Assembly: GCA_019359355.1 (NCBI GenBank) | Contig: JAHHHM010000007.1 | Span: 124,001-188,000, forward strand | Direction: 5' to 3' | Length of the DNA stretch: 64,000 nucleotides | From: Microcoleus vaginatus WJT46-NPBG5 | Lineage (GTDB): Bacteria > Cyanobacteriota > Cyanobacteriia > Cyanobacteriales > Oscillatoriaceae | In this document: in pieces, positions 2,780 to 42,300 of the stretch | Numbering within the stretch: the stretch's first letter is position 1 | Layout: each line of letters opens with the position of its first letter | The notes under the pieces: generated by a model | What the model was told of the DNA's origin: nothing | Database searches by the model: none | What the model saw: the letters and a program-made list of their open reading frames with translations, nothing else | Position numbers and translations under genes: made by a program

Positions 2780-5700
2780 TTAAGTCTCGTTTGCCATCCC
2801 CTCACACAAATGGCGCTCACTCTCACTCACATTGGGATTGGTTCTAAGATAGTCACTGAGCCAATTGCAACCGTGCAGCAGTAACTCATCGAGATCCAAA
2901 GCTTGGGGTTCTAGGCGATCAAGACTCCAGAGTTTCACCGTTTTATCAGCGCCGGCAGAGGCTAAAATCTGGCCGTCTGGACTAAAACTCACCTGTGAAA
3001 CCGTATCTTTATGACCCCGCAAAGTTTGCAGTTCTGTCCCGTCCAAACGCCAGAGTTTAATGGTTTTGTCTGCGCCGGCAGAGGCTAAAATTTGGCCGTC
3101 TGGACTAAAACTCACCGTCAGAACTAAATCTCGATGTCCCTCCAAGGTTTGCCAGAGTGTTCCATCCAAACGCCAAAGCTTAACGGTTTTATCCCAACTG
3201 GCCGAGGCCAATATCTGGCCGTCCATACTAAAACTCACATCCCAAACGCGCTCACTATGACCTGGCAACGTTGTCAAAACCGGCTCTGTAGCGCCTAAGC
3301 TTTCCAGGTTCCACAGCTTAACCGTAGAATCCCAACTCGCAGAAGCTAATGTCTGGCCATCGGGTGAAAAACACACACTCCAAACGTTGTCTGTGTGACC
3401 TCTCAGGGTGGCTAGCAGTGTACCGTCAAGACTCCACAGTTTCACGGTTCTATCCGCACTCGCAGACGCCAAAATCTCACCATCCGGCGAGAAACATACG
3501 CCACCGACCCAATCCTGATGGCCGGTCAGCGTTGCTAAGAGTGTGCCATCAACACGCCACAACTTCACGGTTCTATCCGCACTCGCAGACGCCAAAATCT
3601 GCCCATCCGGCGAAAAGCAGACGCGCTTCACCCAGTCGTTATGACCGGCAAGTGTTGCTAAACGTGTGCCATCAAGACGCCAAAAGTTGATCATTTTGTC
3701 GAAGCCGGCAGTAGCGAGTGTCCTGCCATCTGGAGAGAAACACACACTCATCACCCGATCTGGATGGGCAATATTTCGCCGGCAAGCCAGATCAATCTGC
3801 CACAGCCGAATCGTGGTATCTGCGCCGGCAGACGCCAGAATTGCCCCATCTGGCGAAAACCGCACGCTATTAATTTTGTCGGTGTGACCCCTAAAAGTGG
3901 CGATAGCGGTTCCGTCTAGCTGCCAAAGTTTCACGGTTTTATCCCAACTGCCGGTGGCTAATGTCTCCCCATCTGGAGAAAACCCGACGCTGGAAACCCA
4001 ATCACTATGGCCGGCAATTGTAGCCAGCAATGTCCCATCCCTTCGCCAAAGTTTCACGGTTTTATCGGCACTCGCGGAAGCCAGCAATTGCCCGTCTGGA
4101 CTAAAACTCACCTTCCAAACTCGGTCGCCATGACCGCTGAGGGTGGTTAGCAATGTGCCGTCAAGTTGCCACAGTTTCACGGTACTATCTGTGCCGGCGG
4201 AAGCAATGATTTGGCCATCCGGGCTAAAACTCAGGCCACTCACCCAACCCTGATGTCCCGTGAGGGTGGTTAGTAACGTTCCATCTAGCTGCCAAAGTTT
4301 TACCGTCATGTCCTCACTGGCAGAGGCAATCGTTTGGCCATCCGGACTGAAACACACGCTAAAGATTCGCTCACTGTGACCCCTAAAAGTAGTAATCACA
4401 GTGCCATCTAGCTGCCAAAGTTTCACCGTTTTGTCCCAACTGGCAGAGGCTATCATTTGACCATCTGGACTGAAACTGACACTATTCACCCAGTCGCTAT
4501 GGCCTTGAAAACTTAGGAGTGGGCTGCCGTCAAGTTGCCACAGTTTCACGGTTCCATCCCCACTCCCAGAGGCGAGTAGCCGGCCATTGGGGCTGAAACT
4601 TAGCTCAGTTACCCAATTTTGATGTCCTTGCAAACGATTGCGTTCTCGCGCTTCGGAAATCGCTTGCCGTAATCTCTCAACTGTTTGCTGTTTAACCTCT
4701 GGGGGGGCGTGTGTCTGTTGCAATTGTCTGCCAGCTTTGAGGCTAGCAACTAATGCGGCGAGTTGATCACGGGAGAGCAGCAACACTTGAGATAATGAAG
4801 AAAGCGCTTCAATTTCTGCAATTTCTGCCCGATTTCGCTCTTGCTGTTCTTGATAAAGTGCCTGTCTGAGTTGTTCTTTTGTTAGCCGCAATTCGGCTTG
4901 CAGTTGCGGTTCTTGGCGCTGGCGAATTAAGCTAACCAGATAATCGTGAACCAGTTGGTAAAAATCAACGGAGACTTCTTTTAATAACGAAATAATTCCA
5001 GATTTAACTAAAATTTCTAATACTAAATCTAATTTTTCGGTTTCTGCTGCTAAATCATCGGCTAATTGAGCGCGAGTTTTGATGGGCCGGGTGTCATTTT
5101 CATCGGTGAGAAAATACAGCACCATTCGGGCAATACTTTCGTTGTCTGGGCCACAGTCTTTGACAGCTTCTTCTAAAAACTCGGCAACTAATTTTGCTTT
5201 CGGCCCTTTTTGCAGGTACTGGCCTAGTGTCGTGATATTTTGCGCTTGCAGTTGGGCACCAACGACCTGTAACTCTATGGGGCGCACTTCGCCATTTTCT
5301 CCAGCCAGATCCTGCACGATTTGCTCAATTAAAGCCGGCTCTAAATAAAATCGGGAGCGTTGTGTCAAACTTTGAATAACGGCTTTCGCGTCTGTCGGAG
5401 TAAAATTTCCTAAATAATAAAGAATCTCTTTACTGAGAATATCGTTATCGATGGCATCCAGCCTAGTCAGGCGAGTACATTCTAATAAATAATGCAGGTA
5501 ATCCTGACGCATTGACAGGACGACTTTCACAAAAGGAATATTCAGACACTCGTTTAAAAAGGCGTAAAACTGCTGTCTTCCAGATTGAGATTTATTGGTG
5601 AAGAAAAATTCTTCAAATTGGTCAAAAATTAAGACGGTTAAGAGATTGCGCTCGGCATTTTGTCGCAATAATTCCAAAATTGCCAAGGGAGAATCCAGCG

Positions 5701-7546
5701 GATCGTTAAATTGAATGCCTTTAATTTCTAGGAGCGCATCTGATAACTGTCGGCCTAATTTGCTGACCCAATCGTTATAAACTTGTAGCACCACCGGCAA
5801 GGCGTCTCGCGTGCGAATACAACTTTCTTGGAGAGCGGGAACTAAGCCGGCAGTAATAATCGAAGTTTTGCCAACGCCAGACTGCCCGTGAATCACTGTC
5901 AATTTATGCTGAGGGCTGCTAATTCTCGCTTTTAAACGATTGACATCTTGCTGCCGGCCAGAGGCTGTAATTTCGCAGGCAACGGTGCCTTGATGTGCCG
6001 GTTCTACCAGTGCGGCTAGATTAACTGCCGGTTGTTGAGGTTGGAGCCGGCCGGCTCCAATAAAAGCCCGTAAACCATATTGCTGCTCAATTGAACGCTG
6101 TTGTTGCTTAATCCAAAATGCCGCTCGGTAGTGACCTTCTTCAAAGTACAGTGATCGCAATATTTCCAGAAATCGAATGTAGCGGAGGGGATCATATCGA
6201 GGCTCACTTTCACTAATCGCTGTTGTCATTTCCAAAGCCACTTCTTCTAAACTGTTGTGCGCTGCTGGTTGTTGCCCCAAATGCCGCTGCGCTTTCACCA
6301 GAAATAATTGGCAAACTTGCCTCCAAAGTAAGGGAAATAACTCTGGATTTTGAGTTGGGCCGGCCAAATCGTTTAAGATTTGTAGTGCAAGTTCCGCTTG
6401 TTGTTTGGCCTCTGCCCATCGAGCGTGTCGCAGGGCAGATTTTGCGAAAAACGCATAATCTTGGGCTAACTGAATGGAATTGCCAAACATCTGATGGAGT
6501 TGCAGGGATCTATGGGCCAGGACTTCTAGCGATCCCCAAGCAGATAATCGCTGCAAAACTTCTCCAAGGTGGGTGATAAATTGTGCAACTAAATCCGGAC
6601 GTCCTGCTCGCTCCAAGATATCTACACACTGTTGGAAATAACGTCGGGATTGTTGCCAGTATCTGCGCTTTTGGGCCGGCAGCCGGTCGGCAGTGCGGCG
6701 ATAGCACAGTCCGAGATGAAAGAGCAAAACACCCTGTCGCTCTAAATAAGGAGCCGGTTGCAGGGAACAAGTTTCAGGAGATGTCTCTGCCGGCTCCTCT
6801 TCTCTAGGCGTTTGCCAAAAGGCTAAACTTTTTTGGTAATTCTCGATTGCGCCATCAATGAGATCACGCGCGTAAGCATCTCGACCGAGAACAAATTTTA
6901 CACCGGCTTCTAACGCTGAATCTAACTGAATGCCGCGCCGTTGCAAATCCTTCAAAGCTGACTGAAACTCTAAGCAACTGCGCTTACCCAAGAGGGTGCA
7001 ATTGGGTAAAAACTTACTAGCGCCGGCTTCTAAAACCGCACTAAAAATTTGCTCAATTTTGTGGCGTAAAAAATCTATTAATTCGTTCGTGGGGAGCGCA
7101 AATTCAACCGTTGTCAGCCAGCTTTCAATATCAGGCACTAGCCGAATCATCTTGGGCTGAATTTCATCATTAACCCATAATAAAAGGGGAAACCGGCAGT
7201 GCTTGCGAAACTCCTCCCGGTCAGCATTCATTGAAGTTAGCACTTGCTCAATTGCTCTCACCCCATCTAACCCAAATACCATCAATGCCGGCGGCTGAGT
7301 GCTGCCGAATGCGGCTTGGATCGGGCTATAAAGTGTCTGAACTGTATCCGCTAAGACAAGTTCTGGTATTTCTATGCCACAGAGTGTTCGCAGCAGCCGA
7401 ACCATCCGCTCACGTAAAGATTCATAGTTGCAGCACACTAAGATCAGTGAAAACTGATCCTCACTGAGTGCGATTGCGCGGTAAAGGGTTTGCAATGAAC
7501 CCTCGTTACCGGCCACAACTTCTTCATCTTGGTTCGGCTGTATCAT
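2780..7546 (-). CDS. STAND NTPase with TPR-like helices and 14 WD40 repeats
   Basis: The 1588-residue product is probably an intracellular sensor/switch NTPase. Residues about 1-180 form an alpha/beta domain without a usable P-loop. About 200-500 are helical and TPR-like. The NTPase core begins near residue 548 with Walker [10 protein letters not shown], then a Walker B-type block [11 protein letters not shown], as in nSTAND1/NACHT-like families. About 970-1545 hold 14 WD40 repeats (GH...FSPDGQ..ASAS.DKTVKLW), enough for two seven-bladed propellers, followed by a closing motif [13 protein letters not shown]. The start overlaps the stop of the upstream ATPase gene by ATGA, so the two are co-translated. 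A truncated second copy lies at 1-837. Known STAND proteins oligomerise on ligand binding and many act in immunity or signalling. No toxic effector domain is recognisable here, so the output is unknown. Confidence 0.88.
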
Positions 7547-8901
7547 GACTTGAATTCTTTTGCTTCTGCCAAAATCGGATTGATGTCGTACCAGTGCCCT
7601 TGATCGTTGCGGTATTCAAACACAAACATACTGCGGAGCAAGATTTGATATTCTGTTTCACCCCTGACGCTTTTTGTGCGGGCGACTTGACGCAGTAATT
7701 CCCATTCATCCGGTTCAATTGCTCGCGAGAGTTCGTTGCAGCGTTCCTGAATAACGCTTTCTAAACGCTGGCGCGGAATGGGTAGATCGCCTTTTTGAAT
7801 ACAGCGATAGAGTAGCCCTAATAAATTCCGAACATGACCACCACTGACACGGCACAGCCGATCTAAGGTATCAAGGCTATCAAAGATTTCTGTTACTAAA
7901 GTAATGCGTCGATCTGGTTCGACATCCGGAAATGCACGGGCGAGTACCATCTGCCGCAGTAATGCGACGCCTTCGGTGCAGTCTTGGCCATCGGATAGCT
8001 GCGCCGGCACCATTGGCAAGACTTTAGCATCTACACCACCCCCCAAGCGAGACATCAATGAACCGTAATCATTTGAGAAGGTTAAGACGAGGGGAATTGT
8101 ATAAACGAGGTGACAGTTGAGTTTGCGTAACTGCTCCCCGCGATCCACAAAGAGATATTCTGGTTGTGTTCTCCCAGATGGCAGCCGGCGCGGATCAACC
8201 CGATCCAAGTTATCGACAATCACCACCAGTCCTTCTCTTCCTCGCTGCTTGAGTGACTGAATGGCCGGTTCTAGAAGTTCTTGGTTAATCGATTGCAGAA
8301 TGCTATTCGTGCGCGGTTCGAGGTATTCTCTGAGCCGGCTACGGACATCGGGGCTTTCTTTGGCTTGTGCGGTGATCTTGCCAATTCCCAAGGCAAGTGA
8401 AAACTGTCCGTCTGTGCCGGCACGCACTTTGCCTACTCCCGGCAGGGAGGCTTCAGCGGTTAAATCGATCTCGGTTTGCAGGAGATCGGTTGCGCCTTTA
8501 AGTAATGCTCTGAAACCTTTTGGTTTCAACTCGATCTGCAGTTTCTCAATACTTTCGCTGACTTGACGGGCGATCATCAGCAAAATATCGCTAACATCAA
8601 CGTCTACTAATTCCAAGTCTTGATTGGACTCGAAATAAACGACGTGAAATCCCTGTGCTTCTAATTCGGTTCTGAGTCTGAGCAGTTCTGTAGATTTCCC
8701 ACAACCTATATGACCGCTAAATAACTGGCAGGTTGGCTCATCGGCTTGCAGAATGGCGATGGTGCGCTCGATTTCTTCGATAATTTTGCTGCCTCTCACT
8801 GGGGAGAAATCAATGTAATATTTCTCCTCTTCAGCATTTTTCATATCGATCGCTTTGGAGGGGTTACAAGCTTTATAAAATCTGCGTACATCCAATGCCA
8901 T
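7543..8901 (-). CDS. AAA-type P-loop ATPase, partner of the STAND protein
   Basis: The 452-residue ATPase shows Walker A SGHIGCGKST (about residues 60-70), Walker B GLVVIVDNLDR (about 225-235), a sensor-like segment and a helical C-terminal part (from about 350), as in ORC/Cdc6-like or KAP-like ATPases. The ATG at 8901 has AAAGG about 9 nt upstream. It is the first cistron; its TGA overlaps the start of the STAND gene (ATGA). A 3' fragment of a homologous gene stands in the same position before the second STAND copy at 837, so the gene order is a conserved unit. Known: paired NTPases of this kind occur in prokaryotic conflict systems. Inference: it regulates or loads the STAND partner. It has no transmembrane segment. 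Confidence 0.82.
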   Translation of the reverse strand: MALDVRRFYKACNPSKAIDMKNAEEEKYYIDFSPVRGSKIIEEIERTIAILQADEPTCQLFSGHIGCGKSTELLRLRTELEAQGFHVVYFESNQDLELVDVDVSDILLMIARQVSESIEKLQIELKPKGFRALLKGATDLLQTEIDLTAEASLPGVGKVRAGTDGQFSLALGIGKITAQAKESPDVRSRLREYLEPRTNSILQSINQELLEPAIQSLKQRGREGLVVIVDNLDRVDPRRLPSGRTQPEYLFVDRGEQLRKLNCHLVYTIPLVLTFSNDYGSLMSRLGGGVDAKVLPMVPAQLSDGQDCTEGVALLRQMVLARAFPDVEPDRRITLVTEIFDSLDTLDRLCRVSGGHVRNLLGLLYRCIQKGDLPIPRQRLESVIQERCNELSRAIEPDEWELLRQVARTKSVRGETEYQILLRSMFVFEYRNDQGHWYDINPILAEAKEFKS

Positions 8902-9500: not shown

Positions 9501-10004
9501 GTGGACGAAGAGCATCGGCAATTTGAAGTGAAGCGATTTGTCGAAGAAGTGGGCTTATTATTCGAGTTAGCCGGTCTACCTCGAATGGCCGGTCGAATTT
9601 TAGGCTGGCTGTTGATTTCAAACCCGCCGCACCAGTCTACCGGCGAACTGGCAGAGGTTTTGCAAGCCAGCAAAGGCTCTATTAGCACCATGACTCGGGT
9701 GCTAATTCAAGCCGGCTTAGTAGAGCGCACGAGCCTGCCCGGAGATCGCCGCGACTACTTTTGTATCAAACTGGGTGCTTGGTCAGCGTTAATCAAACAA
9801 CGAGTTGCCCAAATTACAGCAATTCGACAGCTAGCTGAACATGGGTTGCAACTCCTAGAAGGCGAAGATCCGCAGCGGCGGCAACGCTTGCAAGAGATGC
9901 ACGACTTTCACGCTTTTTTTGAGGGGCAATTTCCAATGATGATTGAGCGCTGGGAACAAGAACATCCCCAAAGAGACCGGCCCCATGTTTCGCAGAAGTC
10001 TTAA
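9501..10004 (+). CDS. GbsR/MarR-family transcriptional regulator
   Basis: The 167-residue product starts with GTG. It has the winged-helix layout of GbsR/MarR proteins: an N-terminal helix (VKRFVEEVGLLFE), then GELAEVLQASKGSISTMTRV as helix-turn-helix (about residues 45-70), a wing with ERTSLPGDRRDYF, and a long C-terminal helical dimerisation region. It has no ligand domain beyond this. It precedes the efflux genes at 10292-14665 on the same strand with a gap of about 290 bases, and sits behind a palindromic operator. Known: such regulators often control the neighbouring transporter and themselves. That it represses the MacA-MacB-like pump is inferred from position only. Confidence 0.82.
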   Translation: MDEEHRQFEVKRFVEEVGLLFELAGLPRMAGRILGWLLISNPPHQSTGELAEVLQASKGSISTMTRVLIQAGLVERTSLPGDRRDYFCIKLGAWSALIKQRVAQITAIRQLAEHGLQLLEGEDPQRRQRLQEMHDFHAFFEGQFPMMIERWEQEHPQRDRPHVSQKS

Positions 10005-10291
10005 AAGTCATCCATTCAGGTGAGTCAGCTGGAGGACGTGTATCTGTGCTGGAGAGGGTAAGTTGGAACGTAAGCCAACGAAATGGGTTCGCATCTGTGC
10101 CTCAGTGATTTCCGTTCCAGAAAAAAAGTGGTTACAAATCGTTACAATTAATACAACTCCACCCGCCGGCATTGAATTTAGCTGATTCGCAGTCAATCGT
10201 TATCTAGCCTAATCCGGCCTTGCTTTCCCAGAGTTTAGAAAGAATTCGACGAAATTTCGTTCACTTACTGATTAATTTCAGGAATACGGCC

Positions 10292-11872
10292 ATGCAATTG
10301 CAGCCAGCAAAGAATAAAGAATCAGCTCTCAAACAAGACCGGCAACTGCCACCAGAGCCACCTGTTGATCGCTCACCCAAGCCCAAACGAAAATGGATGC
10401 CGAAGGGTAAGGGTAAAGGTTGGGCGATCGGGCTGATTGCGGCTGCGTTGCTGGGCACCGGCGGCACGGCATTTGTGGCGTTGCGGAATGCCGCACCCAA
10501 GGTAGATATCAGTGAGCTAACCGTGCCGGTGGAGTCAAAAAACTTGACAGTGCGGATCGGGGCGAGTGGGGCAGTGCAGCCGGTGCAGCGGGTCAATCTC
10601 AGTCCGAAAACCCAAGGTCGTTTAGCCGAATTGTATGTGGAGCAAGGCGATCGCGTGGAGGCGGGAAAAGTCGTTGCTCGCATGGAAAGTGGCGAAATAG
10701 AAGCACAACTGATGCAGGCACAAGCGCGGCTATCGAGCGCCAAAGCCCGTTTGCAACAGCGCCAGACAGGGAGCCGGCCAGAAGAGATCGTCCAAGCGCG
10801 GGCACGTTTAAATCAAGCCCAGGCGAGTTTAGACCAATTGCGGGCCGGCAGCCGTTCTGAGGATGTTGCCGAAGCCGAAGCCGGTGTCACCAGAGCACAG
10901 GCGCAAGTAGAAGAGGCACAATCGCGGTTAAACTTAGCGTCAACCAATGTCAGACGCAACCGGGAACTAGCCGACGTGGGGGCAATTGCCCGAAAAGATT
11001 TGGATCAGTTTCTCGATGAAGAGCGTAGGGCACAAGCAAACCTAGAACAAGTGAGAGCCGGTGTTGCAGAAGCAAACCGCCGGTTAGAAAAACTGCAAAA
11101 TGGCACCCGCCCAGAAGAAATTGAAAAAGCCGAAGCGGCAGTGGCCGAAGCGCAAAGCAGTTTAGAGCAGCTGCAAAATGGCACCCGCCCAGAAGAAATT
11201 GCTGCAGCGAAGGCAGATGTCACCGAGGCAGAAGGGCAAGTGCGCTTTTATGAAGTGCAATTGGAAGATACGAAAGTTCGCGCTCCCTTTGCTGGGATTA
11301 TTACCCAGAGATACGCCATAGAAGGTGCGTTTGTGACGCCGGCAACCTCCGCTTCTGACGCGTCTTCCGCAACATCCACTTCGATTGTTGCGCTAGCGAG
11401 GGATTTGGAAGTCTTGGCCAAGGTGCCAGAAGCAGATATCGGTCAAATTAAACGCGGTCAAACGGTTGAAATTGTCGCCGATGCGTATCCCGATCGCGTC
11501 TTTAAAGGTCGCGTTCATTTGATTGCCCCGGAAGCGGTGAAAGAACGAGATGTCACCTTATTCCAAGTGCGGGTAAGCATTGATGCCGGTAAGGATCAGT
11601 TACAGTCGGGAATGAATGTTGATATTAAGTTTGTAGGCGACAAGCTCAGCAATGCTTTGGTGGTTCCTACCGTTGCAATTGTCACCAACAAAGGAGAAAC
11701 CGGCGTTTTAATTCCCGACGAAAAAAATCAACCCAAATTTCAACCTGTTACCGTCGGATCTACCATTGGCAATCAAATTCAAGTCTTAGATGGCATCAAA
11801 GTCGGTGACCGAGTCTTTCTGGAACTTCCCGAAGGTAAAAAACTAGAAGATGTAATCAAAACCATTAAATAA
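10292..11872 (+). CDS. Periplasmic adaptor subunit of a MacAB-like efflux system (HlyD family)
   Basis: The 526-residue membrane fusion protein links an inner-membrane ABC pump to an outer-membrane channel. I start at the ATG at 10292 (AGGA 8 nt upstream); a TTG at 10220 would add 24 residues. One transmembrane segment (WAIGLIAAALLG, about residues 47-65) follows a basic, proline-rich cytosolic tail. Then come the half lipoyl domain (VNLSPKTQGRLAELYVEQGD), a long coiled-coil hairpin with internally repeated GTRPEEI/GSRPEEI blocks (about 150-310), the second half lipoyl and beta-barrel (EVLAKVPEADIGQIKRGQTV), and the membrane-proximal domain. The two blocks QNGTRPEEI are nearly identical in DNA, so the hairpin probably grew by duplication. 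It is followed by the permease (12085) and ATPase (13892). Confidence 0.88.
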   Translation: MQLQPAKNKESALKQDRQLPPEPPVDRSPKPKRKWMPKGKGKGWAIGLIAAALLGTGGTAFVALRNAAPKVDISELTVPVESKNLTVRIGASGAVQPVQRVNLSPKTQGRLAELYVEQGDRVEAGKVVARMESGEIEAQLMQAQARLSSAKARLQQRQTGSRPEEIVQARARLNQAQASLDQLRAGSRSEDVAEAEAGVTRAQAQVEEAQSRLNLASTNVRRNRELADVGAIARKDLDQFLDEERRAQANLEQVRAGVAEANRRLEKLQNGTRPEEIEKAEAAVAEAQSSLEQLQNGTRPEEIAAAKADVTEAEGQVRFYEVQLEDTKVRAPFAGIITQRYAIEGAFVTPATSASDASSATSTSIVALARDLEVLAKVPEADIGQIKRGQTVEIVADAYPDRVFKGRVHLIAPEAVKERDVTLFQVRVSIDAGKDQLQSGMNVDIKFVGDKLSNALVVPTVAIVTNKGETGVLIPDEKNQPKFQPVTVGSTIGNQIQVLDGIKVGDRVFLELPEGKKLEDVIKTIK

Positions 11873-11943
11873 ACCCTCATCCCTAGATTTCTAACACAAC
11901 CCTCAAAGAATCCCCAACCAAACGCATCACACCCCTTAACCTT

Positions 11944-12052
11944 ATCTGCGTCATCTGCGTTTATCTGCGTGCATCTGCGGTTTTAAAATAATCCAAAACC
12001 CCTTGCAAAAGCCAAAAATACTGACGAAACATCTGTGTTTATCTGTGGATAA
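11944..12052 (+). repeat. Cluster of ATCTGCGTTT-type direct repeats
   Basis: Between adaptor and permease, ATCTGCG occurs four times at a spacing of 9-10 nt (11944-11980), and CATCTGTGTTTATCTGTGGAT follows at 12031-12051. A reversed form (CCACAGATAAACGCAG) occurs at 53388-53403. The words are short and degenerate, like dispersed intergenic repeats. No function is evident. Confidence 0.55.
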
Positions 12053-12084
12053 AAAAAATAACTCAGGAGCCATCACAAAAAACA

Positions 12085-13302
12085 ATGGATATTGTTGAAA
12101 GCGTCAAAATGGCAACCACAACGTTGCTAGCAAATAAACTCCGAAGCAGCCTAACCATGCTAGGAATTATTATTGGCAATGCTTCAGTCATTGCAATGGT
12201 TGGAATCGGAGAAGGCGCGCAAAAATTTGTTGGCGATCAGGTTAATTCTTTAGGCTCCAACTTGCTGTTTATAATTCCAGGGAGTCCTCAAGCTCAAAGA
12301 CGGCCTATTTACCCACCCCAAACCCTGGTGCTAGATGATGCAAAAGCAATTGCTGAGCAAGTTGCTTCAGTTAGTGAAGTTGCGCCCGCACTCAATGGCA
12401 GTGAACTGATTTCCTACCGCAACAAAAATAACTCAGCAACGATTATCGGAACCACCCCAGAATTTCTTTCTGTGCGAAGTTTCGATATTGCCAAAGGCCG
12501 CTTCTTGATGAATTTAGATTTGCAACGTCAAGAAGATGTTGTGGTTCTAGGTTCAGAAATAGCCCAGCAATTGTTTGGAAATAAAAACCCCCTGGGCGAA
12601 CAAGTGCGGCTTAAAAATGTCAGCCTGCAAGTGATTGGTGTGATGGAACCAAAGGGTTCAACGTTTGGTGATAATCAGGACATGAATGTTTATGTGCCAA
12701 TTACAACAATGGCGCGGCGAATTGTAGGCCGGTCATCTCCTTATGGAATTCAGGTAACCTTTATTTCCGTCTCAATTCAGGATGAGGCGAGCATGAAAAA
12801 GGCGCAGTTTCAAATTGAAAATCTGCTCAGGCTGCGCCATAAAATCATCAATGAAGATGATTTCACCGTTCGGAATCAGCAGGAATTAATGAATACCTTG
12901 GGTAGCATTACAGGGGCACTAACGTTGTTGTTGGCGGCAACTGCTGCGATTTCTCTGTTTGTGGGCGGCATTGGAATTATGAACATCATGCTTGTCTCCG
13001 TTACCGAACGTACAAAGGAAATTGGACTGCGTAAAGCAATTGGGGCTTCCCAGCAAGATATCCTGGTTCAGTTCATGATTGAATCGGTCATTCTGTCAGT
13101 TGTGGGCGGTTTAATTGGCGTGGGTTTCGGCATTAGCGGTATCATGCTGATCGGAGCATTTACGCCTTTGAAGGGTGGCGTTTCTCTCGTGGCAATCGCC
13201 GTCGCTACTAGCATCTCTGGAGGCATTGGCTTTTTCTTTGGGGTGGTGCCGGCACGCCAGGCGGCTAGACTTGACCCCATTGTTGCCCTTAGAAGTGCCT
13301 GA
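12085..13302 (+). CDS. MacB-type (FtsX-fold) ABC transporter permease
   Basis: The 405-residue permease has the MacB/LolC layout: an N-terminal helix after LLANKLRSSLTMLGIIIGNA, a large periplasmic domain (about residues 50-265), then three helices near 275-300, 325-355 and 365-390. The family signature SVTERTKEIGLRKAIGAS (about 310-327) and the end ARLDPIVALRSA are conserved. It has no ATPase domain; that is supplied by the gene at 13892. Order adaptor-permease-ATPase matches DevBCA and split MacAB systems of cyanobacteria. The stop lies 3 nt from the stop of an antisense gene (13306-13725), so the transport operon is interrupted. Confidence 0.9.
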   Translation: MDIVESVKMATTTLLANKLRSSLTMLGIIIGNASVIAMVGIGEGAQKFVGDQVNSLGSNLLFIIPGSPQAQRRPIYPPQTLVLDDAKAIAEQVASVSEVAPALNGSELISYRNKNNSATIIGTTPEFLSVRSFDIAKGRFLMNLDLQRQEDVVVLGSEIAQQLFGNKNPLGEQVRLKNVSLQVIGVMEPKGSTFGDNQDMNVYVPITTMARRIVGRSSPYGIQVTFISVSIQDEASMKKAQFQIENLLRLRHKIINEDDFTVRNQQELMNTLGSITGALTLLLAATAAISLFVGGIGIMNIMLVSVTERTKEIGLRKAIGASQQDILVQFMIESVILSVVGGLIGVGFGISGIMLIGAFTPLKGGVSLVAIAVATSISGGIGFFFGVVPARQAARLDPIVALRSA

Positions 13303-13305
13303 TGT

Positions 13306-13725
13306 TCACTCCAAGCTGTTGGGTTCAATATACCGGCTGTTTGCTCTGACAAAACACTGACCCCTGTTAAGATCCACACGAAGCCAAGGTTTGCCGGCAC
13401 TGTCCCGCTGAATCACAATCACTTCATCAGAACCCCCACGACCAAAGCTTGCTGCTTGAAACAACTCTTCCTGAGCAAATTGCCGGCTAACTCGGTGATT
13501 GACGCCAGGACCATTCCGGCAGTTTAAACCTTCGGTAACAACTCGCCAAGATCGATGTTCGCCGGCAACTCCCTGAATTTCCTGACCGTTGGCGCTGATT
13601 CTCTGGATTGAATTGTAATCTCCATTGCGGTCTGGAATCGGCTCTCGATTTCTTTGCGCTAAAGCAAGGGTCGCACTGGTACAAATTGAAGTCGTGATCA
13701 CGATTGCCGGCAAAAGACGAAGCAT
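13306..13725 (-). CDS. Secreted SH3-like domain protein
   Basis: The 139-residue product starts with a signal peptide (about residues 1-23, cleavage near ALA-QR). The mature part has a bacterial SH3 (SH3_3)-like core: LNCRNGPGVNHRVSRQF, then QEELFQAASFG, and a closing GKPWLRVDLNRGQCFVRANSRYIEP. LNCRNGPG resembles the LNVRSGPG motif of this family, and the two cysteines may bond. Known: periplasmic SH3 domains bind peptidoglycan or other wall components. It is encoded against the transporter genes, converging with the permease gene and sharing a 166-bp AT-rich region with the divergently read ATPase gene. A link to the pump is possible but unproven. Confidence 0.7.
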   Translation of the reverse strand: MLRLLPAIVITTSICTSATLALAQRNREPIPDRNGDYNSIQRISANGQEIQGVAGEHRSWRVVTEGLNCRNGPGVNHRVSRQFAQEELFQAASFGRGGSDEVIVIQRDSAGKPWLRVDLNRGQCFVRANSRYIEPNSLE

Positions 13726-13891
13726 TTTTATATCCGTATCTACAGGAATATTAAGCTTTCAATTTTTCAGATTACCATTATAATAGATCAAAATAGCAAT
13801 TAACATATTTTTCTGTAAAATCTTTTTTAAATTAAAATTTGTGTATTCTTCTAATTTTTCCAGCCGTTGAGTCTCTAGCGCGAATCTTCTT

Positions 13892-14665
13892 ATGAAAAAT
13901 CAACCCTTAGATAACCAAGCCGTAACAACTTTAAATAGCACCCCTCCGGTGCATAAGCCGGTGATTGTGGGGCTTGAAAATGTTTCTAAAATTTATGGCA
14001 TGGGCAACACAGAAGTTCGCGCTCTTAACGGTGTGGATTTGACGATAGAACAGGGTGAATACTGCTCGATTATGGGGGCTTCCGGATCGGGCAAATCTTC
14101 CGCCATGAATATTATCGGCTGTCTTGACCGGCCTACGTCGGGAAAATATTATCTTGATGGGTTAGATGTTGCGGAAATGGACGAATCCGAATTAGCAAAG
14201 ATTCGTAATCTTAAGTTGGGGTTTGTGTTCCAGCAATTTCACCTTTTGTCGCAACTGTCAGCATTAGAAAACGTGATGCTGCCGATGGTATATGCCGGCG
14301 TTTCTAGTCAAGAAAGGCGAGATAGAGCAACAGAAGCACTGATTCGAGTTGGGTTAGAAAACCGGCTGAATAACAAACCCAATCAGCTATCAGGGGGACA
14401 GCAGCAACGCGTGGCAATTGCTCGTTCAATTGTTAACCGTCCCGTGTTGCTATTGGCAGATGAACCCACCGGCGCTTTGGACTCTAAAACCACGCAAGAA
14501 GTGATTGATATCTTCTCCGAACTCAATGCTGCCGGCATCACAATTGTGATGGTGACGCACGAACCAGATGTCGCGCGTTGTACCCGTCGCATCGTCTGGT
14601 TCCGCGATGGCCAGATCGTACACTCCCATTTAACCCCAGACGATTTAGGCCACGCTGCTTTCTAA
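13892..14665 (+). CDS. ABC transporter ATP-binding subunit (MacB/LolD type)
   Basis: The 257-residue ATPase has all ABC motifs: Walker A GASGSGKSS (about residues 70-78), Q-loop FVFQQFHLLS, signature LSGGQQQR, Walker B LLLADEPTGALD, and the switch His in VMVTHEP. The extra N-terminal 20-25 residues are unstructured. It belongs to the DevA/MacB/LolD group that powers FtsX-fold permeases, so it should energise the permease at 12085 together with the adaptor at 10292. It is separated from the permease by an antisense gene and an AT-rich gap, so it probably has its own promoter. Confidence 0.9.
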   Translation: MKNQPLDNQAVTTLNSTPPVHKPVIVGLENVSKIYGMGNTEVRALNGVDLTIEQGEYCSIMGASGSGKSSAMNIIGCLDRPTSGKYYLDGLDVAEMDESELAKIRNLKLGFVFQQFHLLSQLSALENVMLPMVYAGVSSQERRDRATEALIRVGLENRLNNKPNQLSGGQQQRVAIARSIVNRPVLLLADEPTGALDSKTTQEVIDIFSELNAAGITIVMVTHEPDVARCTRRIVWFRDGQIVHSHLTPDDLGHAAF

Positions 14666-14788: not shown

Positions 14789-17700
14789 ATGAGGCTGGCA
14801 TCTCGCTGGAACCGCGCCCACATTTTAGTGTGTTTAGGCGCTTTTTTGTTGGCTGTGCTGATGAGTCAGCTTTTTTCGGCTCAGTCGAGTTATGTTGGTG
14901 TTTCGCAACCCACAAATTCGCTGCCGGTGGCGATTACAGAAGGTTGGCAGTACCGCTGGGGTGATTCACCGTTGGATGCGGCGGGTGTGCCGGTGTGGAG
15001 TTATCAGGAACTCTCCAGTCCTGAGTGGAAATCCTTGCAAATTCCCGCAAAACTAGCGAAACCTCCGGGAGAAAAAATGGCTTGGTTTCGTGTTAAGTTG
15101 CCTGAAGGCCGGTGGCAATATCCCAGTCTTAATTTGCAAGGGGCTTATTGGGCATTTGAAGTCTATCAAAATCAGGAACTCATTGGTAAATTTGCCGATT
15201 TAGATGCAGCCAGCAACCTACTCACATTTAAAGATAGAAGTTGGTGGATTATTCCGGTAAGACCTAATTTACAAAACCAAATATTGCTTTTTAGAGCGAA
15301 TGTAGATTCTCAAAACTTAATTGATATTAGACTTGATAAAAAGATAGTCATTGGCTCGCTTCCACAGCTTATTAAATCAGTCGTAAAAAAAGAAATTTTT
15401 AAGTTTGTTTTAGGATGTCTATTTACTTTAATTGGATTTTTTTCGTTTTTATATTTGTTAAAAGATCGCACAAAAAAAGCTTACTTAGGATTTAGCTTTT
15501 TTTCAATTTGCTTAGGAATTTACAGCATTTTGGACAACCACACGATTAACTTAATTTTTACGATTCCCAAATATTATGAACCGATAATGCTAGCCTCGTT
15601 TTATTTAATACCTGTTGGGCTATATTATTTTTTCGAGCAAATATTTGGCACCGGCAGCAAATCTATCATCAGGCGGCTATGGCAATTGCATCTTGTTTAT
15701 GCGGTTGTCGCTTTAACTTTAGTGAGCCTTAAATCATCTTTTTTAGACGCTACAGTAAATACGGCATTTATTCTGTTTATTGGAAGTACATTCATTATAA
15801 TTGCAAGTGCAATAAAAGTCGCTTTAAAAGGAAATATTGAAGCAAAATTATTTACGTCAGGATTTACTATTTTTGCCCTCTGCGCTCTGCCAGATATTTT
15901 GGAAAGCCTGAAAATTATTAGCTGGCCAGTAGAAACTTATTACTGGGGAATGTTAGGCTTTATTTTATTTCTGGTAGTTATTTTAGAACGCCGATTTACA
16001 GAAGCGCGAAACCAACTAGAAATGCAGAATGCCACATTACAGCGAATCGCTAAGCTCAAAGATGAGTTTTTGGCAAATACATCCCACGAACTTCGCACAC
16101 CCCTTAACGGCATTATTGGCATTGCTGAATCAATGATTGATGGAGCCACCGGCTTGCTGACTTCCCAGCAAATTGCCAATCTTTCTTTAATTGTTTCAAG
16201 TGGCCGGCGTCTAACTCAGCTTGTTAATGATATTCTCGATTTTTCGAGACTAAAACATAAAAATATTGAACTGCAAAAGAGTGCCGTGGGGATGCGAGAA
16301 ATCGCAGATGTAGTGTTAACCCTTAGTCAACCTCTAATCGGTAAAAAATCTTTAAAGTTAATGAATAAAATCGACCCGGATTTGCCGCCCGTAGACGCTG
16401 ATGAAAATAGATTACAACAAATTTTACACAATCTAATTGGCAATGCCATCAAGTTTACGGAAGCCGGCACAATAGAAATTTCTGCTGTATTAGGAAATGC
16501 AGAAGAATTTTCTACCTCACCAATCCTCAATTCGCAATTACCAATATTAGCGATTACCGTTTCTGACACCGGCATCGGCATTTCCCCTGACAAATGGGAG
16601 AGAATTTTTGAGTCATTTGAACAAGCGGATGGCTCAACTGCCAGAGAATACGGCGGCACCGGCTTGGGGTTAGCCGTTACCAAACAGCTTGTCGAGTTGC
16701 ACGGCGGCAAAATTTGGGTGGAATCGACGCTGGGAGAAGGTTCGCGGTTTACGTTTACCCTGCCGGTTTCATCTCAAGATAGGCAACCCACAAATACCGG
16801 CACCCCTGGTTTGAAATTATCAAAATTAGCTGTAAAAGAAGAAGACATTTTGCTAGAACGCAATTTGGCTTTAGATTTATCGCTTAATCAAAGTTCTGAA
16901 CTGAATTTTTCTCAATTTAGCACTTCTCAAGGAGACTTTAAAATTTTAATTGTGGATGATGAGCCGGTGAATCTTCAAGTGCTTGTTAACCATTTATCTC
17001 TGCAAAACTATTCTCTCACGCAAGCAACAAATGGGGTAGAAGCTTTAGCAATTATTGAACAAGGATTTCAACCCGACCTCATTCTCTTAGATGTGATGAT
17101 GCCGCGAATGACCGGCTATGAAGTTTGTCAAAAACTTCGGGAAAAATTTGCAGCCAGTCAATTGCCGGTGGTGTTACTAACCGCTAAGAATCAAGTTTCC
17201 GATTTAATGGAAGGATTTACTTCAGGAGCTAATGATTATTTAACCAAACCGATTTCAAAAAATGAATTGCTTGCGCGAATTAAAATTCACATTCAACTGT
17301 CAAAAATAACCCTTGCTTACGGGCGTTTTGTACCTCATGAGTTTCTGCGCTTTTTAGGACATGAAAGCATCATTGATGTTAAATTAGGCGACCAAGTTCT
17401 TAAAGAAATGACAATTTTGTTTTCTGACATCCGCTCGTTTACAGCTATGTCAGAGAGCATGACACCGAAACAAAACTTTGATTTTATTAACGATTACTTG
17501 AAACGGGTTGGCCCTGTGATTCGGAATCACAAGGGTTTTATCGATAAATATATTGGAGATGCGATGATGGCATTGTTTCCTGAAACCGCAGAAGACGCGG
17601 TGCAAGCAGCAATCGCAATCCAACAACAAGTCTCACTTTATAACGCTCACCGGCAGGAAAATGGCGACCCTGCGATTGCGATTGGGATTGGTTTGCACAC

Positions 17701-18178
17701 CGGCAGTTTAATGTTAGGGACTGTTGGAGAAGAACAGCGGATGGAAACGACTGTAATTGCCGATGCGGTGAATCTAACGTCTCGCTTGGAAGGGCTAACA
17801 AAACTTTATGGCTCAGGAATTGTGATCAGCGAACAAACGCTTAATTGTCTCAACGAGCCGGCAAACTATTGCTATCGCTTTTTGGGCAAAGTTAAAGTAA
17901 AAGGTAAGCAAGAAGCCGTAGGAGTCTTTGAAATTTATGACGCAGAGCCAGCCCAACAAAAAGCCTTAAAACTGCAAACTCAATCTGATTTTGAACGGGC
18001 TATTAATCTTTATGAAAATCAAAAGTTTGCTGAAGCCTGTCAAGTTTTTGAGCAAATTTTGCAGGTAAATGATCAAGATAAAGCGGCTGCTTTTTATGTG
18101 AAACGCGCTCAAGAGCTGCAAATATCTGGAAAAGCGGGAAGTTGGAGGGGGATTGAAACCTTCGAGGAAAAATTATAA
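14789..18178 (+). CDS. Hybrid sensor kinase with receiver and class III nucleotidyl cyclase
   Basis: The 1129-residue protein combines two outputs. After an N-terminal membrane anchor (about residues 10-30) comes an extracytoplasmic beta-sandwich (about 35-190) and a seven-helix block (about 200-400), as in 7TMR-DISM receptors. The kinase follows: HisKA with [15 protein letters not shown] (His near 433), HATPase with [15 protein letters not shown] and GGTGLGL. A receiver domain has DDEP, LLDVMMP (Asp near 768) and the conserved Lys in YLTKP. The cyclase (about 860-1040) keeps both metal Asp ([17 protein letters not shown]) and the Lys in IDKYIGD, so it looks active. A TPR-like tail ends the protein. 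It resembles CyaC-like cyclases. A 28-nt heptamer repeat (16521-16548) is inserted in frame in the ATPase domain. The start has GGAG about 9 nt upstream. Confidence 0.88.
16521..16548 (+). repeat. In-frame heptamer (CAATNNN) repeat inside the sensor kinase gene
   Basis: Four consecutive heptamers CAATCCT, CAATTCG, CAATTAC, CAATATT run through the HATPase coding region and encode [10 protein letters not shown], extra residues between two conserved strands. The pattern matches the short tandem heptamer repeats of cyanobacterial intergenic DNA (see 19996, 58390). Confidence 0.6.
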
Positions 18179-29494: not shown

Positions 29495-32400
29495 ATGTCA
29501 ACGAGCAACAGCACATCTGGTAATGATTTTGTTCTAGGTACTACGGATAGAGATAATCTTCAAGCGCTAGGCGGCGACGATCTAGTTTTGGGACTAGAGG
29601 AAAATGATCAAGCTGAAGGCGACGCAGGCCAGGACTTTCTCGATGGCAACATCGGCGACGATAGAATATTTGGGGGTTCTGGAAGTGACACCGTCCGGGG
29701 CGGGAAAGATAACGATAATCTATTTGCTGAAACTGGCGATGACATCGTCTTGGGTGACTTAGGGAACGACATCGGTTTAGGTGAAGTTGGACGCGATATT
29801 CTCTTTGGTAACCAGGGTACTGATTACCTGGCTGGCAACGAAGACAACGATACCCTGCATGGTGGCGAAGGAAATGATACCCTTCGCGGGGGTAAGAACA
29901 ACGACCACCTGTTGAGCGAAAGAAATGATGACATAATCGCCGGCGATCTAGGAGACGACATTGGTTCAGGCGGCACCGGCAGCGATATTCTGTTTGGCAA
30001 CCAAGATGCCGACTGGTTGGGTGGCAATGAACAAAACGACTCCCTGTATGGCGGCAAACAAAATGACACCCTGCATGGCGGTCAAGACAACGACCAGCTA
30101 TTTGGCGAACTAGATGATGACGCACTCGCCGGCGATCTGGGAGACGACATCGGTTTGGGTGAGGTTGGCAACGATTATGTGTTTGGCAACCAAGGTGCTG
30201 ATTGGGTTGCTGGCAACGAAGGCAACGATACCATCTATGGCGGTAAAGATAATGATACCGGCCACGGTGGTAAAGATAACGACATGGTCTGTGGCGATCT
30301 CGGCGATGACGTGATGCATGGCGACTTGGGAGATGACCTCGTTTGCGGGGGTGCCGGCACAGACGTTTTATTTGGCAACGAAGGCAACGACTGGATCGGC
30401 GGTAACGAAAATGAGGATACACTTCATGGCGGCAACGGCAATGACTCCTTGTTCGGCGGGATGGAAAATGACTTCATCTATGGCGAAGAAGGTAATGACG
30501 TACTTGCCGGCGACATCGGTGCCGATACAGTCTTCGGAAACAATGGCAATGACACGTTTATCATTGGCCGGCGCAACGATGTTCCAGGCTATCGTACCAC
30601 CGGCGGCCCGGAACTCTCTGACGCAGACTGGTTCCTCGACTTTGGCAGCGATGACGTTATTTCATTGATAGGCGGTCTGACATCAGCCGAACTAAATATC
30701 TTTGCCGGCACTGAGGCATACGCCGGTTATACGATTATTCAAGATAATGTTCTCGGCGAATATTTAGCCATTATCAGAGGCACCCAGCCAAGCTCCTTTG
30801 TCCGCGACACTTACCAGCTGACTTACCAGCCTACCTCAGCACCGGCTGACGGTGCTGACGGAAGTCCTGCTGACGGTGGTGGCGGAAGTCCTGTGGTTCC
30901 ACTGCCAGTTGATAGCGGTGGCGGTACACCAGGCGGTGGCGGTACACCAGGCGGTGGCGGTACACCAGGCGGTGGCGGTACACCGGGCGGTGGCGGTACA
31001 CCGGGCGGTGGCGGTACACCGGGCGGCGGCGGTACACCGGGCGGTGGCGGTACACCAGGCGGAAATACTGCCCCAGTTGCCGTAAACGATGCGGTGACAA
31101 CTGATGAAGATGTGCCGTTGACTCTGCCGAACGTGTTAACCAATGACACCGATGGTGATGGCGGCGTCCTCACGATTAGCGGCATTACCAATCCGGTGAA
31201 CGGCACAGTAGTGAATAACGGCGACGGCACGTTTGTGTACACACCGACAGCCAACTTTAACGGCACAGATAGCTTTAATTACACAGTGTCAGACCCTCAG
31301 GGCACGACAGACATCGGCACAGTCACAATTACCGTCAATCCGGTTAATGATGCGCCGGCTTTTACAGGGGACAATGGGTTCAGCACAACCGAAAACACGC
31401 CGATACAGATTCCCAATCTAGTAGCCAATTTCACCGATCCCGACGGTGATCCTCTGAGTGTGACCCAGATCGGAGTGCCACAAAATGGCACCCTGACTCC
31501 AAATGAGGATGGCACCTATACCTACACCCCAGCACCGAATTTCAACGGGACAGACAACTTTACCTACACGGTTTCCGACGGCAAGGGTGGCACAACAACT
31601 AACACGGTAACGATTGATGTTGGTGGGCAAAATAATCCGCCCGTTGCCGTAGCCGATGCGGTGACGACTGATGAAGATGTGCCGGTGACTTTGCCGAACG
31701 TGTTAACCAATGACACCGATGCCGATGGGGACGTGCTCACGATTAGCGGCATTACCAACCCGGTTAACGGCACCGTGGTGAATAACGGCGACGGCACGTT
31801 TGTGTACACTCCGGCTGCCAATTTTAACGGCACGGATAGCTTTAATTACACAGTTTCCGACCCTCAAGGGGCCACAGCAGCCGGCACAGTCACAATTACC
31901 GTCAATCCGGTTAATGATGCGCCGGCTTTTACAGGGGACAATGGGTTCAGCACAACCGAAAACACGCCGGTACAGATTCCCAATCTGTTAGCCAATTTCA
32001 CCGATCCCGACGGTGATCCCGTGAGTGTGAGCCAGATTGGAGTGCCACAAAATGGCACCCTGACTCCAAATGAGGATGGCACCTATACCTACACCCCAGC
32101 ACCGAATTTCAGCGGGACAGACAGCTTCACCTATACGGTTTCAGATGGTAAGGGCGGCACAACGACTAACACGGTAACGATTGATGTTGGTGATGGTGGC
32201 GGCACACCCCCGACAAACACCGCCCCAGTTGCTGTAGCTGATGCGGTGACGACAGATGAAGATGTGCCGGTGACAATTCCGAACGTGTTAATCAATGACA
32301 CGGATGCTGACGGCGATGCCCTCACAATTACCGGCATCACCAATCCGGCTAACGGCGGCGTAGTAAACAACGGCGACGGCACGTTTGTGTACACACCGGC

Positions 32401-39362: not shown

Positions 39363-42300
39363 ATGCTCGCACTGTCAGGCTATCACGTTACAGAAGAAAT
39401 TGTTTCCGGCATCAGAACAGTTATTTATCGGGGATGCGACGAGCGAGCGCAAAGGCCGGTTATTGTTAAAACTCTAAAATCAGAGTACCCTACCCTTGAA
39501 GAAATTACTTGCTTAAGGCAAGAATATACCCTTACTAAAAGCCTTAATTGCGAAGGAATTGTCAAATCTTATAGTTTAGAAAAATACCGCAACAGTTTTG
39601 CTTTAGTTATTGAAGATTTTGGCGGCCAGTCTCTTGCCGAGTTCCTTGCCGAGCAAAAAATTCAACTCATAGAGGTGCTACTAATAGCGGTTGCTTTGGC
39701 AAAAGCTTTAGATTATTTACACAAAATTCCGATTATTCATAAAGATATTAAACCTTCAAATATTATTATTAATCCCAGCACAAAAGAAGTCAAACTGACT
39801 GATTTTAGTAGTGCTTCTCGCCTCCATTTGCAGAAGACGACGAGCAGCCATTCTAATTTGCTAGAAGGCACTCTAGCTTATATGTCACCGGAGCAAACTG
39901 GAAGGATGAATCGCTCGGTTGACTACCGCACAGACTTTTATTCTTTGGGTGTAACTTTGTATGAGGTGCTAACAGGCCAGTTACCTTTTACAACAACCGA
40001 TCCAATGGAATTAGTTCATTGTCATTTGGCTAAACAACCTCTACCAGTTTCGAAAGTAAAAGGAATTCCGCAAGCAGTTTCTGATATTGTCATGAAGTTA
40101 TTAGCTAAGACGGCTGAAGACAGATATCAGACTGCTGCCGGCTTAAAGTTTGATTTAGAAATATGTTTGTCTCAATTGCAAGCATCCGGAACAATTGAAA
40201 GCTTTTCTTTGGGTAAACATGATCGGGGAAGCGAGCTTTTAATCCCACAGAAACTCTACGGACGGGAGATCGAGGTACAGATGCTCATGAACGCCTTTGA
40301 GCGCGTTAGTGAAGGAGCATCTGAAATTATGCTGGTTTCCGGTTATTCGGGAATTGGTAAAACTTCAGTGGTTCATGAAATTCATAAACCGATTGTAGGA
40401 GCGCGTGGGTATTTTATTGCCGGCAAGTTTGATCAGTTTAAACGAAATATTCCTTATGCGGCTCTGATTCAGGCTTTTCAAGAATTAATTCGCCAACTAT
40501 TAACAGAAAGCTCAGAAAAAATTGCAATTTGGAAAGAAAACCTTTTAGAAGCTTTAGGACAGCAAGGGAATGTAATTATTGAAGTGATTCCTGAAGTTGA
40601 GCTAATCGTCGGTAAACAGCCTGAATTAGCACAACTAGGTGCTGCGGAATCGCAAAATCGCTTCAACCGAGTGTTTCAACAATTCATTCATGTCTTTTGC
40701 CAATTTGAACACCCCCTAGTTTTCTTTCTAGATGATTTACAGTGGGCAGATTCAGCATCGCTGAAATTACTGCAGTTGCTAAGTACTGACTCGGACAGCC
40801 ACTATCTGTTAATGATTGGGGCGTATCGAGATAACGAAGTTAATCCCACGCATCCGTTAATTCAAACGCTGGAGAAGATTCAACAAGCCGGCGCTGTTGT
40901 GAATAATATCGTCCTCCGGCCTTTAGATATTAAAAATGTCAGTCAATTAGTCGTAGAGACTTTGGGCGAAAAAGAAAGTGAAAAAGGAGAAGAAGCTCAG
41001 ACCGATTCTTCAAACTCTCTCACTCCTTCTGATCGTTCAAAGCCTCTGTCTGAGCTACTTTTTAACAAAACTGGGGGTAATCCCTTCTTTTTAACCCAGT
41101 TGCTCAAAACTTTGTATTTAGAAAAGTTGCTGGTTTATGATGCAATTTCTGGTATTTGGCGCTGGGATATAAAAAAAATTCAAACGATTGGGATCGCTGA
41201 TTATACTGTTGTTGAATTAATGGCAAAAAATATTCGCAAATTGCCAGAGACAGCGCAGAAGGTATTAAAATTGGCGGCTTGCATCGGCAACCGATTTACC
41301 TTAGATGTTCTGGCGATTGTGAATGAGGAATCAACGACAACTACGGCAGCTCATCTGTGGCCGGCACTTCAAGCCGGTCTGATTTTGCCTCTGTCCAATG
41401 CTTACAAAATTCCTTTGGTTGGAGAATGGGAGTTTTTGAGTGAAGATTCCGTTTCGCACATTTCTAATCCTCAAACGCCTATCTCTTATAAGTTTTTGCA
41501 TGACCGAGTCCAGCAAGCTGCTTATTCTCTCATTCCTGAATCTGATAAACAAGCGGCTCACCTAAACATCGGCAAATTGCTACTGCAAAAAACGAATCCC
41601 GAAGAACGCAAAGAAAATATCTTCGCTCTGGTAAATCAACTCAACTACGGAAGCAATTTACTCACATCTAACACAGAAAAAGATGAGCTAGCCCAGTTAA
41701 ATTTGATAGCCGGCCAAAAAGCAAAAGTAGCAATGGCTTATGAAGCCGCTCTCAGGTATGTGAATGTGGGTTTAGCACTGTTGCCGGCAGACAGCTGGCA
41801 CACTGACTATGATTTGACACTGACACTTTATGTAGAAGCCGCAGAAATAGAGTATCTAAACACCTACTTCGAGCGTTCGCAACAGTTGACTGAGATTATT
41901 TTGCAAAAAGCCACAACTTTACTCGACAAGGTGAAAGCGCACGAGTTGCAAATACAGTGTTATATGGCTCAAAACCAGATGTTGAAAGCCTTAGAAACTG
42001 GATTGCAAGTGCTGGAAACGCTAGGGGTTTCTCTTTCTGCGGCTAGCATTGACGATTGTTTGGCGGTTGAGTTGCCTTCTGTGAAAGATTTAGAAAACAT
42101 CGCAGAAATGACCGAACCCTATCAATTAGCAGTCTTACGGCTACTCGTCACTGTAGCTACTCCCGTTCCTGTTGTGAAGCCGGAAATGCTGCCGGTGCTG
42201 ATATTGACTCAGGTGAAGTTCTGTCTCAAACATGGTCATTCTCCTCTATCCGCCGTAGGCTACGCTCTTTATGGAATGATCTTGTGTACGGTGATGGGAG

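Follow-up and report, generated by a model that had tools for sequence, protein, structure and literature searches.

The gene considered here lies on the forward strand at positions 14789 to 18178 of the window (the whole 64,000-nucleotide stretch of Microcoleus vaginatus DNA that was analysed), where the open reading frame listing gives a single intact chain of 1129 amino acids with an ATG start. Pfam matches and structural models together give the order of the chain: an N-terminal helix, an extracytoplasmic domain of about 150 residues, a 7TMR-DISM_7TM membrane domain, HisKA, HATPase_c, a receiver, and a class III cyclase. All five Pfam domains score above their cut-offs, in keeping with the initial annotation, which had proposed a single protein with histidine kinase, receiver and cyclase outputs behind a 7TMR-DISM-like sensor. 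Two congeners retain the chain in full, and the overall dN/dS against them is 0.13–0.14, which marks this sensor–kinase–receiver–(predicted) adenylyl cyclase as a real gene under purifying selection; together with the Pfam scores, the ratio rules out a chance or broken reading frame.

The chain opens with a hydrophobic helix (residues 10–30; 14816–14878, this and all following domains on the forward strand) that may act as a signal anchor or a signal peptide, and that appears as a hydropathy peak at residues 12–30 and as a low-confidence model helix at residues 2–30. The predicted extracytoplasmic, mostly beta domain (residues 45–190; 14921–15358), which carries a GWQYRWGD motif, precedes the membrane domain (residues 205–397; 15401–15979), whose match to PF07695 covers profile positions 6–197 of 205 with 51.5 bits against a cut-off of 29. 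A helical linker (15980–16057) leads from the seventh helix into HisKA (residues 424–489; 16058–16255; 64.7 bits), with the phospho-acceptor H433, and then into the HATPase_c catalytic domain of the kinase (residues 538–660; 16400–16768; 106.5 bits), with N552 in the N box and D593 in G1. The receiver (residues 719–832; 16943–17284; 103.3 bits) contains D723, D724, D768, T798 and K820, and its phospho-acceptor is D768, just where the initial annotation had looked for it. Between receiver and cyclase lies a linker with an eleven-residue motif (17288–17398), likely a cyclase transducer element. In the class III cyclase domain (PF00211, Guanylate_cyc; residues 871–1044; 17399–17920; 75.3 bits) we find D880 and D924, which we take to be the metal ligands, K920 and T988, presumably contacting the purine, and N995 and R999, presumably the transition-state residues. 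The C-terminal tail (17939–18175) is weakly TPR-like, with a TPR_2 match at residues 1068–1096 of 13.7 bits, below the cut-off of 27. A single-sequence model of residues 700–1129 (receiver, cyclase and tail) had a mean pLDDT of 38 and was set aside.

For comparison we assembled 42 family sequences, 32 with the sensor–kinase–receiver–cyclase order (the long form, including L103, which is truncated at a contig end) and 10 with sensor and cyclase only (the short form). Every one of the 32 long-form sequences has H433, N552 and D593 of the kinase and all five receiver residues, and all six cyclase residues occur in 42 of 42. The HisKA His, HATPase_c N and G boxes and receiver Asp of a hybrid histidine kinase are thus all found, as are the two metal Asp, the purine Lys with Thr/Asp, and the transition-state Asn and Arg of a class III adenylyl cyclase. 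The key residues noted as intact in the window protein are therefore intact in every family member that has the domain concerned.

Immediately upstream of the receptor gene, and separate from it, is a gene for a MacB/LolD-type ABC ATPase (13892–14665, forward strand; NCBIfam matches, none above equivalog cut-offs), which ends 123 bases ahead of the receptor start codon. The two genes may be co-transcribed. A search for a promoter and terminator belonging to the receptor gene itself returned 7 and 3 candidates, against 7.0 and 3.7 in shuffled sequence. The adjacency recurs in at least 5 of the 42 loci (a lower bound, as some loci, such as L085 and L103, end at contig ends just upstream), namely the window, both congeners, L071 (80% identical) and L099 (65%), with gaps from the ATPase stop, given as measured distances minus the stop codon, of 48 bases in L071 and 4 in L099; transporter and receptor may be functionally linked. 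The region upstream of the receptor gene (9501–14665) holds in all a MarR-family gene, an RND-type adaptor, a MacB-like permease and the ATPase, as well as a small opposite-strand gene (13306–13725) that is kept in both congeners, and NblB (above cut-off) lies just downstream on the other strand. In five other loci (L009, L068, L070, L078 and L079), genes of a single cluster flank the receptor gene on both sides on the opposite strand, 189–367 bases upstream and 102–2543 bases downstream; one looks rhodanese-like by eye, and the clustering may join unlike genes. Elsewhere in the window we observed a 1588-residue protein with 14 WD40 stretches (2780–8901, reverse strand), overlapped by four bases by a 452-residue gene that has no Pfam match at E 1e-5 and in whose congener a P-loop-like motif can be made out by eye; a 1869-residue protein with RTX calcium-binding, cadherin-like, bacterial Ig and FG-GAP repeats (29495–35104); and a 1856-residue multi-domain signalling chain with Ser/Thr kinase, AAA_16 ATPase, GAF and HATPase_c domains (39363–44933).

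The proposed similarity of the N-terminal part to 7TMR-DISM receptors stands for the membrane domain, whose PF07695 score exceeds the cut-off; a DISMED-type outer domain was not found by Pfam. No Pfam family matches residues 1–200, and the DISMED1 and DISMED2 models are absent from the window protein and from all 22 family sequences scanned, so that Pfam supports neither assignment for the ectodomain; one or other of these domains is common, not universal, among 7TMR-DISM receptors. When a profile of the ectodomain (22 sequences) was compared with PDB sequences, the best match, a weak one, was the periplasmic domain of RetS (E 0.5). An AlphaFold2 model of residues 1–401, built from four sequences only and of medium confidence (mean pLDDT 63), begins with the N-terminal helix, continues with a domain made largely of beta strands, and places seven long helices between residues 191 and 400. 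Split into blocks of ten residues, the ectodomain stays at or below a pLDDT of 66 throughout, and from residue 191 on 16 of 22 blocks reach 70. Searching Foldseek with this model gave RetS as the second hit (E 0.044; TM-scores 0.13 and 0.31), with several GH2 glucuronidases next (about 0.06). The top match, TMEM87A, was the sole one below 0.001 (E 5.9e-4), and we discount it as a fold relative (TM-score 0.32, rmsd 14). The ectodomain is thus likely, though not established, to be jelly-roll-like and related to RetS. The count of seven helices is a softer point, as it comes from the Pfam 7TM match and the medium-confidence model, and a hydropathy scan of residues 200–400 gives only five separate peaks.

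Three relatives from other phyla, with records labelled Gemmatimonadota, Polyangiaceae and Clostridia, share a ten-residue motif without change, an identity that is partly built in because they were found with patterns including TEGWQYRW; the output of all three is a kinase. Against the two congeners, dN/dS is 0.19–0.23 for the ectodomain and 0.07–0.10 for the 7TM domain, so that the sensor as a whole is under purifying selection.

At the opposite end of the chain, the photoactivated adenylyl cyclase 5x4t has a Lys and a Thr at the positions aligned with K920 and T988. The corresponding residues are Glu and Gly in 2w01, which carries the PDB name adenylate cyclase and which we take to be the guanylyl cyclase Cya2; Cya2 is called a guanylyl cyclase in the available text of PMC4284465. 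In a published design, an E488K substitution in the guanylate cyclase employed was the basis of the adenylate cyclase constructs (PMC5995499, as far as its accessible text goes). On the strength of this precedent and of the alignment, cAMP is the expected product, and a guanylyl cyclase is disfavoured. The organism's own genome (6.46 Mb, 44 contigs) contains 38 cyclase-domain matches, five of which are class III domains of about 234–239 bits within 18 kb of one another (contig C17, 382479–400447), and 15 cNMP_binding matches that are candidate cAMP receptors.

The linkers between domains differ sharply. All 32 long-form sequences place the first cyclase motif 110 residues from the receiver Asp, and the receiver–cyclase linker shows zero amino-acid changes in 37 codons against the two congeners (the cyclase itself has a dN/dS of 0.02–0.03). 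From the kinase His to the receiver Asp, the same 32 sequences take 18 different values between 305 and 431, and the kinase–receiver linker evolves nearly neutrally (dN/dS of 0.72 and 0.78 against the two congeners, 67% identity). A loose phosphotransfer followed by a rigid coupling would be expected to leave just this combination of a variable, neutral linker and a fixed, unchanged one. Against this reading, the zero comes from 37 codons, and residues 401–490, which span the linker from the seventh helix and HisKA, are almost as fixed as the receiver–cyclase linker (dN of 0.007 and 0), so that a mechanical input to the kinase is equally constrained. The distance from the ExRF motif after the seventh helix to the kinase His is 40 in 27 of 32 sequences and 33, seven residues or one heptad less, in the three from the window's genus; in two further long-form sequences it is 32, which is 8 less than 40 and not a heptad multiple, a further point against it. 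Linker lengths seven residues apart also occur in two light-activated constructs among the designed phytochrome–cyclase fusions described in the accessible part of PMC5995499.

Taking these observations together, we consider it probable that a loosely tethered phosphorelay drives a rigidly coupled receiver–cyclase unit in a membrane-bound, multi-step cAMP receptor. An outside signal would be sensed by the extracytoplasmic domain, probably jelly-roll-like and ligand-binding, together with the seven transmembrane helices, and the sensor would set the activity of the attached kinase through the helical linker. The kinase would autophosphorylate at H433 and hand the phosphate, presumably within the same chain, to D768 of the receiver on its loose and variable linker. 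The receiver, probably dimeric, would change on phosphorylation, and the change would pass through the rigid helical transducer of fixed length to a cyclase that probably also works as a dimer, switching cAMP synthesis, presumably upwards. The initial suggestion that a phosphorelay could gate the cyclase thus gains a comparative fit, in the form of the invariant Asp-to-cyclase spacing and the unchanged linker.

The short form bears directly on this reading. These proteins (672–687 residues) lack kinase and receiver, neither of which was matched by Pfam in the two short sequences scanned (L011 and L086), and their seventh helix is joined directly to the cyclase: the stretch following it, typically ERRFTEAxxxLKAY, runs into RFVPHEF before the cyclase, with the first cyclase motif 51 residues from ExRF in 10 of 10. 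In a tree of the sensor (41 family sequences, omitting L103, rooted on the three relatives from other phyla, whose branches are long), the short sequences form one clade (100/99) within a 13-member clade (100/97) that holds three long sequences. A cyclase tree (all 42 sequences and three paralogues, with a weak root at 55/77) agrees, placing the short clade (100/97) among 11 sequences including one long one (98/86). The simplest reading of these topologies would be a single loss of kinase and receiver. An RNase-D-like exonuclease gene lies upstream on the same strand in 16 loci of both forms, 47 to 2742 bases away, and a trpB-like gene occurs in 13 loci (both names read from the sequences by eye); the shared neighbours suggest one ancestral locus for the two forms. 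We rejected a transfer of the missing kinase and receiver to an adjacent gene, as a kinase query finds none in the 10 short-form loci (5.8–18 kb each); a receiver query gives three matches there (32–37%, in L011, L073 and L077). Full cassettes are found elsewhere in some short-form genomes, such as G434, G446 and G527.

If the short forms work, they do so without kinase or receiver, and the sensor may therefore also reach the cyclase mechanically. One tentative extension is that the sensor drives the cyclase by two routes, through the phosphorelay and by pushing directly through its helices, and that one lineage dropped the relay with its function kept; we hold this to be possible, with the odds against it. 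If true, long and short forms would make a natural pair, the same receptor and enzyme with and without a two-component relay. A direct mechanical account, in which continuous helices carry the signal from sensor to cyclase and the kinase–receiver pair is a modulator or a brake and not the main path, seems to us unlikely. Its attraction lies in the ten relatives of one clade that join sensor straight to cyclase at constant spacing and keep all cyclase residues, with no kinase match at their loci; against it, the variable, nearly neutral kinase–receiver linker of the long form would be a poor conductor of mechanical signals, and the phosphorelay residues are kept throughout the 32 long forms.

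Two further accounts concern what the sensor and the kinase are for. That the cyclase is chiefly a sensor of bicarbonate or metabolic state, with the N-terminal part as a membrane anchor only, strikes us as very improbable. CyaC shares the purine-site Lys and Thr that the window cyclase has as K920 and T988. Bicarbonate stimulates a cyanobacterial CyaC, according to the available text of PMC4284465, and stimulation of the window cyclase is by analogy only a possibility; purifying selection on both parts of the sensor speaks against a mere anchor, as does the occurrence of different sensors on the same cassette. Hardly credible is the view that the main targets of the kinase are other response regulators, leaving the receiver–cyclase unit as a side branch or phosphate sink: hybrid kinases are often part of branched systems, and kinase and receiver matches abound in the genome, where 69 places match a kinase–receiver–cyclase query at E 1e-30 (mostly kinases, judging by the part matched) and where the window kinase could accordingly serve other receivers, but the receiver is fused to the cyclase at the same spacing in every long form.

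We return, then, to the phosphorelay reading, whose interest lies in the separability of its steps: a sensor and cyclase that occur with the relay (32 sequences) or lacking it (10), and a cassette that occurs behind other sensors, allow the two steps to be tested apart. In our judgement, both the switching of a class III cyclase by a receiver and the inward passage of a signal through a seven-helix bacterial receptor are poorly known. In outline, the short form is reminiscent of a receptor whose seven helices act directly on a cyclase, and the added value here is the natural pair of forms, with the relay present in one and absent in the other.

With the window's own genome counted at every level, all 3 genomes of the genus have the sensor, as do 3 of 8 in the family, 42 of 388 in the order (27 of 149 genera) and 4 of 388 drawn evenly from the class. 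PF07695 matches 25 of the 388 class-draw genomes at E 0.001 and 16 of them above the cut-off, figures that agree with the original remark that coupling to a seven-helix sensor is less usual. These 16 genomes hold 18 places above the cut-off, or 17 genes, two places in G345 looking like one gene. Four of the 17 belong to the present family; among the other 13, seven have a kinase motif, three have GGDEF and EAL, and three (L026, L027 and L029) were assigned no output motif in a scan that used loose motifs on the longest open frame per short locus (L016–L042). The cyclase of one genome (G171) lies outside its short locus (L030) and was found through the family alignment instead. Viral contigs gave no match to the window protein. 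Among the best 5000 matches to plasmid records, no place covers 80% of the protein; those from Leptospira interrogans cover residues 80–827 and a plasmid-borne ladS residues 203–827, at 27–28% (27% for ladS). In the open literature searched, including the available text of PMC1592074, PMC7695008, PMC6107284, PMC4284465, PMC1183210, PMC5995499, PMC5932348 and PMC2743650, we found no report of a cyanobacterial 7TMR-DISM kinase–receiver–cyclase protein; PMC1592074 has figures of domain neighbourhoods in which 7TMR-DISM parts and cyclases appear.

Close relatives of the cassette occur in the same genome. Three paralogues carry a kinase–receiver–cyclase cassette 61–64% identical to that of the window protein and share its receiver–cyclase spacing of 110 (computed directly for L154 and L156, and from motif positions for L155), but their sensors are dCache–HAMP (L154 and L155) or CHASE (L156) in place of 7TMR-DISM, with two hydropathy peaks each, unlike the window protein. 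The initial annotation should accordingly be refined on three points: an adenylyl cyclase is expected, one clade lacks kinase and receiver, and the cassette stands behind other sensors in the same genome.

Seven-helix sensing with a kinase and receiver is familiar from RetS and LadS, the 7TMR-DISM hybrid kinases of Pseudomonas, which like the window protein combine an extracytoplasmic domain, seven helices, a kinase and a receiver. The window protein differs from them in its cyclase output and in an ectodomain that matches no DISMED Pfam model, and its likeness to the RetS periplasmic domain is weak in both sequence and fold. Leptospira also has proteins that combine 7TMR-DISM with adenylyl cyclase. 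RgsP, NicD and Leptospira 7TMR-DISM proteins with GGDEF or EAL outputs are cyclic di-GMP enzymes (PMC6107284 and PMC5932348, in their available text); these share with the window protein a 7TMR-DISM sensor on a second-messenger enzyme, theirs for cyclic di-GMP and the window's, as predicted, for cAMP.

The order of the output half is that of CyaC, which in Anabaena and Spirulina is REC–GAF–GAF–HK–REC–AC. The same genome encodes a separate CyaC-type protein of this architecture (L157), 34% identical to the window protein over the kinase–receiver–cyclase part. By Pfam, the receiver and GAF domains that open this protein are missing from the window protein, which has the 7TM sensor instead, so that we do not regard the latter as an ordinary CyaC orthologue, and the receiver–cyclase spacing is 120 in the CyaC-type protein against 110 here, so that the analogy with CyaC is not exact. 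A precedent for the relay is nonetheless at hand: activation of the CyaC cyclase by autophosphorylation and phosphotransfer is the subject of a title by Kasahara and Ohmori (1999) cited in PMC1183210, and AphC and CyaC are treated in the available text of PMC4284465. The best reading of the window protein is thus as a new form of CyaC-type hybrid cyclase, one fitted with a 7TMR-DISM sensor.
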